DNA of 64,000 nt, from NCBI RefSeq assembly GCF_000184705.1, contig NC_014831.1:558001-622000 (forward strand), read 5' to 3'. The stretch's first letter is position 1. Each line of letters starts with the position of its first letter. The DNA comes from Thermaerobacter marianensis DSM 12885. Lineage in GTDB: Bacteria > Bacillota > Sulfobacillia > Thermaerobacterales > Thermaerobacteraceae. Made by a program: the position numbers and the translations under genes. Of the stretch, positions 34,840 through 40,460 are shown piece after piece. The notes beneath the pieces were generated by a model. It worked only from the letters and a program-made list of their open reading frames with translations, was not told the origin of the DNA and made no database searches.

Positions 34840-36069
34840 ATGGCTGCTTCACCGGTGCGACCCTTTGTAGAATTCATCAAAATCCGAAACTATAAGAGCA
34901 TCGGTCGTTGCGAGGTACGGTTGAATCGACTTACGGTACTGGTAGGGCCTAACGGATCGGGAAAGAGTAACTTCCTCGATGCCCTTCGCTTTGTGGCTGA
35001 CGCCCTGCGCACGACTTTGGAGCATGCCATCCGGGATCGCGGCGGCATTAATGAAGTTCGGCGTCGCTCCTACGGTCATCCGCACAACCTCGGTATCACG
35101 TTGGGAATCAATGTCCCTGATGGTTCCCGTGCCATCTATGAATTTCAAGTTGGCTCGTCTCAGGATTCCGGCTATCAAGTTGTACGGGAGTCTTGTAAAC
35201 TGGCGCCGGCTTCTTCGCCATCATCTTGGATCCACAGTTACGTAGTTGAGAGAGGTAGGTTGCGTGAAGCAAGTTTCATAGGGAAGGGGCCGGACCAAAT
35301 CGCCATTGACCGGCTTTACCTCACGGTTGTATCGGCGCTTCCTGAGTTTCGGGCCCTGTATGATGGTCTGTCCAATATGGGTTTTTACAATCTGAATCCC
35401 GACGTCATTCGTGACATTCAAGATCCGGATCCTGGCGAACTTCTTGACCGGGATGGCCGGAACATGGCCAGTGTTATACGGCGGCTGCGAGAAACCAACC
35501 CCGCCGTGTTAGAGAGAATCATCGAGTACTTGCAGGCGGTCGTTCCCGGTGTTCGATCGGTGGATGCACTGCATCTCCAGCGCAAGGAAACACTGGAGTT
35601 CCGCCAAGAGGTTCGTGGAGCTAAGCACCCGTGGAAGTTTTCAGCCACGAATATGTCTGATGGAACCCTTCGAGCTCTGGGTGTGTTGGTTGCGGCTTTT
35701 CAGACCCAGGCGTTACGGAAGTTTCAAGTGCCACTGGTAGGGATCGAAGAGCCGGAGATTGCGATTCACCCTGGGGCAGCCGTGAAACTAATGGACGCCC
35801 TACTTGAAGCCAAGCGATATACACAGATTCTCATTACCACACACAGCCCGGAACTCTTGGACCATCCCCAGTTAACGGACGATATGATACTTGCGGTGGA
35901 AGCGGAACACGGGGAAACGTACATTGCGCCGGTAGATCAGCAGATTCGACAGGTGATCCGTAATAACCTTTACACGGTGGGGCACCTCCTGCGACTCGGT
36001 CAGTTGCAACCTGATCGCGTCGGCTTTGAGCCACTTCCGCGACAGTTGGAATTTGCCTTCCAGCAATAA
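34840..36069 (+). CDS. AAA ATPase of OLD/RloA type (COG4637-like), putative defence component
   Basis: The 409-residue protein is an SMC/ABC-like ATPase: FIKIRNYKSIGRCEVRLNR, Walker A VGPNGSGKSNFLDAL (about residue 36), a signature-like MSDGTLRALGVL, Walker B VPLVGIEEPEIAIHPG (about 301) and the His switch ITTHSPELLD (about 334). Between them is a helical or coiled insert. Such AAA_15/AAA_21 proteins pair with Toprim nucleases in antiphage systems (OLD, Gabija, PARIS). GC content is roughly 52-58% in lines I counted, far below its neighbours, and codon use is unlike theirs, so it was acquired. The next gene starts 13 bases downstream. The defence role is inferred from architecture. Confidence 0.88.
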   Translation: MAASPVRPFVEFIKIRNYKSIGRCEVRLNRLTVLVGPNGSGKSNFLDALRFVADALRTTLEHAIRDRGGINEVRRRSYGHPHNLGITLGINVPDGSRAIYEFQVGSSQDSGYQVVRESCKLAPASSPSSWIHSYVVERGRLREASFIGKGPDQIAIDRLYLTVVSALPEFRALYDGLSNMGFYNLNPDVIRDIQDPDPGELLDRDGRNMASVIRRLRETNPAVLERIIEYLQAVVPGVRSVDALHLQRKETLEFRQEVRGAKHPWKFSATNMSDGTLRALGVLVAAFQTQALRKFQVPLVGIEEPEIAIHPGAAVKLMDALLEAKRYTQILITTHSPELLDHPQLTDDMILAVEAEHGETYIAPVDQQIRQVIRNNLYTVGHLLRLGQLQPDRVGFEPLPRQLEFAFQQ

Positions 36070-36082
36070 GGTGGGTTCATGG

Positions 36083-36691
36083 ATGCGGATTGCGAGTATC
36101 GTCGAGGGGCATGGTGACGTAGACGCCGTGCCCGCGTTGCTTCGCAGGATTGCCCATGCATGTGGGGCATACGACGTGAGGATTCTTCCTCCGATTCGCG
36201 TAGCTCGGACGCACATTCGGGCCAACGATCCTGAACTCGAAAGGGTCGTGGAACTGGCCAGGTATAGGCTTCAAGGGAGCGGTGGCCTGATTGTTGTGTT
36301 CGACGCTGACACGGACTGCCCGGCTCAGTTGGGTCCCAGTCTTCAACAGGAGCTAGAAAAAAAGGTCGCCCCGGTCAAAACGGCAGTGGTGTTAGCCAAA
36401 ATGGAGTTTGAGGCATGGTTCCTTGCAGCTATTGAATCGTTGCGAGGTTTCCGTGGGATTCGTGAGAATGCGGTACCTCCCCCCGACCCTGAATCGATTC
36501 GTGGAGCCAAGGAGGAACTACGGCGGATGATGGTGCCTGAGCGGGGTTATGGCGAGACAGTGGATCAAGTTGCGTTTGCGAGCCGGTTCGATCTGCAGTT
36601 GGCCCGGAGTCGCAGCCCGTCTTTCGACAAGTTTTACCGTGAGGTCATGCGGCTCTTGTCTTGTGAGGAACGGACAGGAGTCCGACGGTGA
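36083..36691 (+). CDS. DUF4276 Toprim-like protein, partner of the AAA ATPase
   Basis: The 202-residue protein starts at ATG 36083 with AAGGTGG nine bases upstream. It shows the DUF4276 pattern: IASIVEGHGDVDAVPALLRR (acidic Glu, residues 3-22) and GGLIVVFDADTDCP (DxD, residues 69-82), the Glu and Asp-x-Asp positions expected of a Toprim metal site. KMEFEAWFLAAIESLRG and the C-terminal SPSFDKFYREV follow. In related two-gene systems the Toprim protein is the nuclease effector and the ATPase its sensor. It shares the low GC of the ATPase gene. Catalytic activity has not been shown and is inferred. Confidence 0.85.
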   Translation: MRIASIVEGHGDVDAVPALLRRIAHACGAYDVRILPPIRVARTHIRANDPELERVVELARYRLQGSGGLIVVFDADTDCPAQLGPSLQQELEKKVAPVKTAVVLAKMEFEAWFLAAIESLRGFRGIRENAVPPPDPESIRGAKEELRRMMVPERGYGETVDQVAFASRFDLQLARSRSPSFDKFYREVMRLLSCEERTGVRR

Positions 36692-38990: not shown

Positions 38991-39179
38991 GTCCTTGCGG
39001 CGAAAGTGCGGCCCGGGACCCGGCCGCGGAAAAGGGGGCCCGTCGCCCGGGCTGGGGGCGAGGGGGTGTCAGGGCGCGTCCCGGTGCGGTCCGGTGCCGT
39101 TGGATGGCGCTGGGCCGGGGAAGGCCGGGCCGGCAAGGCTGCCCGCGACAACGAGATGGTGTGACAAGGTGGAGTCGCG

Positions 39180-40460
39180 GTGACGAGGGACGAGGCTGTA
39201 GATAAGGATGCCGTTCCGAGCAAGGAGGCGGCGCGGCGGGAGGTGTACCGCCGCCTGCGGGAGGCCGGCGCGGCGCGCTTCCCCTTTCCCATCGAGGGCC
39301 GCATCCCCAACTTCCAGGGTGCCGAGCGGGCCGCCGCCCGGCTGCGGGAACTGGAGATCTACCGGCGCGCCCGGGCGCTCAAGGTCAATCCCGACACGCC
39401 CCAGCTGCCCGTCCGGGCCATGGCCCTGGCCGACGGCAAGACCCTCTACATGCCCACCCCGCGCCTGCGCGGCGCCTTCCTGCGCATTCGCCCCCAGGAC
39501 GTCCCCCGCGGCGAGGAGCGCCGGGCCGCCCAGCTCAGCAAGGCGGCCGAGTACGGCCGGTTCGTCCCCCTGGCCGAGCTGGCCCCGGAGGCGGCGCCCA
39601 TCGACCTGGTGGTGGCGGGGGCGGTGGCGGTGACCCGCGACGGCGCGCGGGCGGGCAAGGGCGAGGGGTACGCCGACTACGAGTACGCCCTGCTGCGGGA
39701 GCTCGGGCACCCCGAGCTGCCCGTGGTGACCACCGTCCACCCGCTGCAGCTGGTGGACCGGCTGCCCGTCGATCCCCACGACCTGTCGGTGGACGTGGTC
39801 GTCACCCCGGACCAGGTGATCCGGACCCGGACCCCATACCCCAAGCCCCGGGGCATCCGGTGGGAAGAGGTGACCGAAGAGGATCTCCAGGCCATGCCGG
39901 TGCTCCGGGAGCTCCGCGCCCTGCTCTGGGAGCGCATGACGGTGCCCGAGGTGCTGGTGCCGGGTCTGGCGGCGGTGTTCGTCGGGCTCAACCCCGGCCG
40001 CGCCAGCGCCACCGCCGGCCACCACTTCGCCGGACCCAACAACCTCTTCTGGCGGCTGCTCCACGAGGCGGGGTTCGTGCCGCGGGTGCTGCGGCCGGAA
40101 GAGGACGGGCTCCTGCCCCGCTGGGGCCTGGGCGTGACCAACGTGGTCCCGCGGGCCACCCAGGGCGAAGCGGACCTCACCTGGGACGAGCTGGCCGCGG
40201 GCGGCGCGGTGCTGCGGGAGAAGATGGCCCGCGTCCGGCCGCGGCTGGTGGTCCTGCTGGGGAAGCAAGTGTACCGGGCTTATGCCGGGCTGGCCCGCAC
40301 GGCGCGGGTGGAATGGGGGCCTCAGCCCCGGGAGTCGGTGCCCGGGGTGCGGGAGTTCGCGGCGCCGAACCCGTCGAGCCGCAGCACGGTACCCTATGAG
40401 GAGCGGCTGCGCCTCTTCCGGGAAGCGCGGGCGTGGCTGCAGGATGCGTCGCGGGCGTAG
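39180..40460 (+). CDS. Fusion of a 5-formyltetrahydrofolate cyclo-ligase-like domain with a Mug-type DNA glycosylase
   Basis: The 426-residue protein starts at GTG 39180 behind AAGGTGGAG. Residues 1-235 resemble the 5-FCL/MTHFS family: [14 protein letters not shown], then [29 protein letters not shown]-like [11 protein letters not shown] and [18 protein letters not shown]. Residues about 262-425 are a mismatch-specific uracil-DNA glycosylase: [20 protein letters not shown] (catalytic Asn in GLNPG), [36 protein letters not shown] and [10 protein letters not shown]. Both halves look intact. It joins folate one-carbon metabolism and base-excision repair in one polypeptide. The glycosylase assignment is firm; activity of the first domain is uncertain, since divergent 5-FCL-like proteins exist. 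Confidence 0.85.

Follow-up and report, generated by a model that had tools for sequence, protein, structure and literature searches.

A single gene of Thermaerobacter marianensis DSM 12885 encodes a COG0212 "5-FCL-like" paralogue followed, on the same chain, by a Mug/TDG-type uracil-DNA glycosylase. As far as our literature search shows, this is an undescribed architecture of known families, no published description of it having been found. The explanation we favor, at roughly even confidence, is a two-enzyme fusion that arose once and combines a probable Mug glycosylase with a likely thiamin-salvage COG0212 enzyme, the two acting as separate catalytic units. The fusion gene (426 amino acids) occupies positions 39180–40460 (+) of the window, i.e., of the whole 64,000-nucleotide stretch analyzed here, and runs from a GTG start to a TAG stop. 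Its coding part without the stop (39180–40457, +) is one uninterrupted open reading frame (ORF) of 426 residues. An in-frame TGA lies upstream (39162–39164), the GTG at 39180 is the sole possible start downstream of it, and a Shine-Dalgarno-like AGGTGG (39167–39172, +) was recognized by eye 7 nt upstream of the GTG. All motifs quoted in the earlier note were found in this ORF ([35 protein letters not shown]), and the two-domain fusion proposed there is real: both Pfam domains lie in the one open frame. Because the same two-domain ORF occurs at full length and without internal stops in 15 genomes, an assembly artefact is excluded. The AlphaFold model of the fusion protein has a mean pLDDT of 88.2 and a pTM of 0.70. 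An overlapping minus-strand ORF (39069–40268, 399 residues) has no gene-like signs and is a shadow ORF, as expected at about 72% GC.

The 15 genomes with a complete two-domain ORF represent 10 genera, 7 families, and 2 classes. Carriers in the window's class comprise four species of the window's genus, one other genus of the order, and two species of another family, while a second class of the same phylum contributes eight fusion genomes in four families. The other 14 fusion proteins share 59–88% identity with the window protein. Two further fragments, one spanning the junction (G004) and one holding the Mug half only (G539), end at contig edges. A stop codon or frameshift between the halves of homologues had been named beforehand as evidence that would count against the fusion, and no intact homologue is interrupted in this way. 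The sole broken copy (G452; L104, 8007–8309, −) lacks both GLNPG and the N-terminal half, and was ruled out as a split homologue: it is a decayed remnant of the glycosylase half alone. The fusion is intact in the other member of that genus (G590).

Phylogenetic analysis placed the N-terminal halves of the fusions in one clade (98/98) and likewise their Mug halves (SH-aLRT 94). The monophyly of each half suggests a single origin, and one fusion event is the reading that fits it best. Both domains retain their full free-standing length. The linker (39924–39938, +) is very short, about five residues in alignments of free-standing and fused proteins, because the ends of free-standing COG0212 proteins and the starts of free-standing Mugs meet almost exactly there. 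Purifying selection acts on both halves, with dN/dS values within the window's genus of 0.11–0.14 for the N-terminal half and 0.17–0.19 for the Mug half. Two other origins were considered and rejected. A split-gene precursor was not apparent in genomes with both genes (G028, G064, and G141), where the COG0212 and Mug genes are non-adjacent. As for a phage origin, phage records show Mug halves only, and the viral fold matches are ordinary uracil-DNA glycosylases (UDGs) and polymerase-type proteins.

It is conceivable, although unlikely, that two unrelated housekeeping enzymes were simply joined once by chance, with nothing to be gained by splitting them again and co-expression as the sole consequence. 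The full free-standing length of the domains is consistent with such a neutral event, as is the distance between COG0212 and Mug genes where they are separate (e.g., G028 and G064). The fusion loci also share no conserved operon beyond the genus, with ABC-type genes and a subtilase shared only sporadically. However, among genomes descending from the fusion, no intact split version was found, and within the window's class, no fusion genome showed a COG0212-paralogue or Mug copy other than the fusion itself (E limit of 0.001).

The C-terminal half (residues 254–421; 39939–40442, +) is of Mug type by Pfam, phmmer, and the structural model, in agreement with the earlier note. Pfam identified UDG at residues 262–421 (E = 5e-21, 76 bits against a cut-off of 24), and phmmer matched this half to E. 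coli Mug (1.7e-27), aligned from Mug residue 2 on. The modeled half has the Mug/TDG fold, with a TM-score of 0.92 (by target) and an rmsd of 1.6 relative to 1mug. Motif 1, GLNPG (39984–39998, +), contains the catalytic Asn271. This residue aligns with E. coli Mug Asn18, which in family 2 UDGs positions the water for attack (PMC5387724). The second motif, NPSSRS (residues 397–402, NPS at 397–399; 40368–40385, +), extends to NPSxRST in 14/14 of the fusion Mug halves listed. The family-2 features, namely GxNPG with the water-positioning Asn and NPS, are invariant across the fusions. The fusion shares these features and the fold with E. coli Mug and human TDG, along with an HHFAGP-type loop (HHYPGP in TDG). 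The fusion differs from E. coli Mug in having a 250-residue N-terminal enzyme-like domain, and NPSSRST instead of NPSGLSR. When compared with PRK10201, a model that defines E. coli Mug equivalogs and not the whole of UDG family 2, the Mug half scored 111.4 bits (E = 3.6e-32), below the cut-off of 144 bits. Hence, its motifs and fold are those of family 2, but PRK10201 does not make it an equivalog of E. coli Mug. Taken together, the catalytic Asn, the NPS motif, and the fold give it the appearance of an intact UDG of family 2. It is not the only uracil glycosylase of the genome, which also encodes a family-4 UDG and another, more distant one that may belong to family 5. At residue 270, the fusions have G[LI]NPG, like E. 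coli Mug and human TDG, whereas free-standing Mugs of the sister clade (L042–L057) have GYNPG, a possible change in the base pocket.

The N-terminal half (residues 14–248; 39219–39923, +) was delimited using Pfam (PF01812), trees, and the model. The earlier note had taken it for a 5-formyltetrahydrofolate cyclo-ligase (5-FCL/MTHFS); this stands for the superfamily fold, but not for the identity of the enzyme. With regard to fold, Pfam identified 5-FTHF_cyc-lig at residues 16–210 (E = 3e-27, 96 bits against a cut-off of 27), and Foldseek comparison of the model with solved 5-FCLs gave TM-scores of 0.65–0.73 (0.66–0.73 by target for 1ydm, 2jcb, and 3hy6), showing a 5-FCL fold. Against the bacterial MTHFS equivalog model TIGR02727 (NCBIfam), in contrast, it scored 35.7 bits, less than half of the 84.9-bit cut-off, whereas a mere 103-residue piece of the same genome's canonical 5-FCL scored 83.2 bits. 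That canonical gene lies elsewhere in the genome, adjoins a mraZ-like gene, and encodes GRGGGYYDR. The tree separated the paralogues, including the N-terminal half, from canonical 5-FCLs at 100/100, and grouped the N-terminal half with free-standing cyanobacterial, proteobacterial, actinobacterial, and Bacillota members.

A column comparison of 12 canonical 5-FCLs of the phylum with 22 fusion and free-standing paralogues shows where the two groups differ. The canonical GGGYYDR is replaced by the clade signature GKGxG[YF]xDxE, present in the window protein as GKGEGYAD (residues 159–166; 39654–39677, +). The canonical Tyr (12/12) is Ala, Gly, or Ser in 21/22 paralogues, and the canonical Arg (12/12) is Tyr, Leu, or Met in 19/22. 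The paralogues also have a YxSF strand four residues shorter, and have gained two segments, FPxPxxGRIPNF, which is nearly invariant, and one at the C-terminus with Trp228. The N-terminal Lys and Arg, R157, G159/G161/G163, and D166 are retained in the 22 paralogues. With YqgN, BA4489, and YgfA, the N-terminal half shares the fold, the N-terminal Lys/Arg, and the GxGxG[YF]xD loop; it differs from them in GEGYADY for GGGYYDR, in the shorter strand, and in two additional segments, [12 protein letters not shown] and the C-terminal one with Trp. The retained Lys/Arg and GxGxGYxD loop are what we take to be the residues around the nucleotide in 5-FCL structures. Overall, model score, signature, and tree indicate that the N-terminal half belongs to the COG0212 "5-FCL-like" paralogues and is not the folate enzyme. 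Public records nonetheless label such paralogues 5-formyltetrahydrofolate cyclo-ligase, an annotation trap that is corrected here.

To our knowledge, no reaction has been assigned to the COG0212 5-FCL-like proteins, which are found in bacteria, archaea, and plants. Published work (PMC3223725, PMC5041015, and PMC4120688) divides COG0212 into 5-FCL itself and a second group, a paralogue associated with thiamin, which is called "not a 5-FCL enzyme" and "cannot replace 5-FCL and lacks detectable 5-FCL activity"; the first of these papers reports the Arabidopsis member At1g76730 to be without 5-FCL activity. The N-terminal half groups with the free-standing prokaryotic members of this paralogue family and shares GKGxG[YF]xDxE with them. 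Its equivalence to the exact thiamin-linked group of the literature would rest on COG membership and this shared pattern, and not on direct comparison with the Arabidopsis protein. While the members described so far (At1g76730 and its prokaryotic relatives; Pribat et al. 2011, as cited elsewhere) are free-standing, the partner here is a DNA glycosylase, and no thiamin genes were found near the fusion gene or its fused relatives.

The altered 5-FCL signature could mean that the N-terminal half is non-catalytic and binds nucleotide or nucleic acid for the glycosylase, by analogy with human MTHFSD, although we consider this more doubtful than a chance fusion. By description, MTHFSD likewise combines a 5-FCL-like domain with a domain that acts on nucleic acid, and it has been named an RNA-binding protein (PMC5773659). 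However, GKGxG[YF]xDxE, His187, and Trp228 are invariant or nearly so, free-standing members included, as expected of an active site. Moreover, RNA binding by MTHFSD is attributed to an RRM, a domain of its own; this RRM is the partner domain in MTHFSD, whereas the partner in the fusion is a glycosylase.

We are, if anything, slightly more skeptical that the N-terminal half is a repair partner, which would reclose formamidopyrimidine (ring-opened purine) residues or nucleotides, or process the excision product, to give one base-repair enzyme with two reactions. Retention of the glycosylase fusion over two classes, its short linker, selection on both halves, and the retained nucleotide-site residues are all compatible with this idea. 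In the 5-FCL reaction, an N-formyl group is activated and a ring is closed, presumably with ATP as activator and a neighboring nucleophile closing the ring. An N-formyl-type group is also present in ring-opened thiamin and in formamidopyrimidines, which by analogy would therefore be natural candidate substrates of the N-terminal half. Nonetheless, free-standing relatives adjoin thiamin and ABC-transport genes rather than repair genes, and we know of no COG0212 protein for which an activity on DNA or nucleotides has been measured. We give still less credence to the broader proposal that the fusion is a Rosetta-stone clue, in which the COG0212 family acts ATP-dependently on N-formylated or ring-opened pyrimidines (ring-opened thiamin, formamidopyrimidines) and is coupled here to base excision in a two-step repair protein that would differ from every glycosylase known. 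Least probable of all is the suggestion in the earlier note that a folate-responsive 5-FCL/MTHFS domain couples uracil repair to folate status and to the supply of dTMP. It draws on the Pfam family and fold shared with 5-FCL but is not supported, having against it the sub-threshold equivalog score, the missing signature, the position outside the canonical clade, the separate canonical 5-FCL in the genome, and the lack of a nearby THF riboswitch.

A thiamin link of the paralogue group to which the N-terminal half belongs is supported by gene neighborhoods and by the distribution of ThiC. On a Roseicitreum plasmid, a free-standing relative (38.5% identity) adjoins genes for thiamine phosphate synthase, thiazole synthase, thiS, and thiD, a locus (thiD/S/G/E) that is also beside a BMP-type ABC transporter. 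The order LysR, paralogue, BMP transporter recurs in two other rhodobacteria, with no thi genes in view. ThiC was found neither in the window genome (13/14 control genomes gave a match) nor in any other fusion genome (0/15 in all), and the window genome has two TenA homologues. Across the window's class, ThiC was detected in 49 of 154 genomes, comprising 0/16 paralogue carriers versus 49/138 others (Fisher P = 0.003), or by genus 0/8 carrier genera versus 38/80 others (P = 0.009), counts that ignore shared ancestry and include many draft genomes. In the wider phylum, one paralogue carrier (G412) does have ThiC, TenA was found in only 8/15 fusion genomes, and searches near fusion and free-standing loci for TPP or THF riboswitches returned only tRNAs at the gathering threshold. 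Given the uncorrected ancestry, the ThiC of G412, the incomplete occurrence of TenA, and the absence of a TPP riboswitch at these loci, the thiamin link is supported rather than shown. Separately, a plasmid of Roseinatronobacter sp. S2 carries two divergent COG0212 paralogues (L115, 2021–2758 and 4920–5750), each with its own ABC transporter; the paralogue tree places the two on separate deep branches.

Under the two-enzyme explanation that we favor, the C-terminal half probably works as a family-2 glycosylase. It would excise uracil, and perhaps further damaged pyrimidines, from mismatches such as G:U, which form rapidly where cytosine is deaminated in hot, GC-rich cells. The N-terminal half, with its nucleotide-site residues retained and its second pocket different, would most likely use ATP to act in thiamin (HMP) salvage, its substrate being a pyrimidine that is formylated or damaged in some other way and not 5-formyl-tetrahydrofolate. 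The domains would then probably be separate catalytic units on one chain, joined by a short linker, and folate sensing would not be needed. The computations show the single ORF, what the two domains are, that the glycosylase motifs are intact, the conservation, the single origin, and the clade of the N-terminal half; that either half is catalytic, that ATP is used, what the N-terminal half acts on, and that allosteric coupling is absent are what we infer in this scheme. The nearly constant, very short linker nevertheless hints at some coupling, since one would usually expect a chance fusion to split or vary. Conserved in at least ten genera, the fusion may be a clue to the role of the B1-linked COG0212 family; its long retention, combined with the absence of ThiC from nearly all surveyed carriers, narrows the candidate COG0212 reactions. 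The search for the COG0212 reaction also gains a single-chain protein that is probably stable to heat.

Other features of the surrounding DNA were also recorded. tRNA genes of equal score lie upstream of the fusion gene at three loci, all from fusion genomes of the second class (L097, 8927–9000, −; L100, 9836–9909, −; L102, 7805–7878, +), and perhaps mark an old insertion point. The fusion gene had no match among the PADLOC defense models. In the window, positions 34840–36691 (+) encode an AAA-type ATPase (34840–36069) and a DUF4276 protein (36026–36691), a pair with strong scores against the PADLOC HEC-01A/HEC-01B candidate defense models, and the ATPase also matches AriA models.
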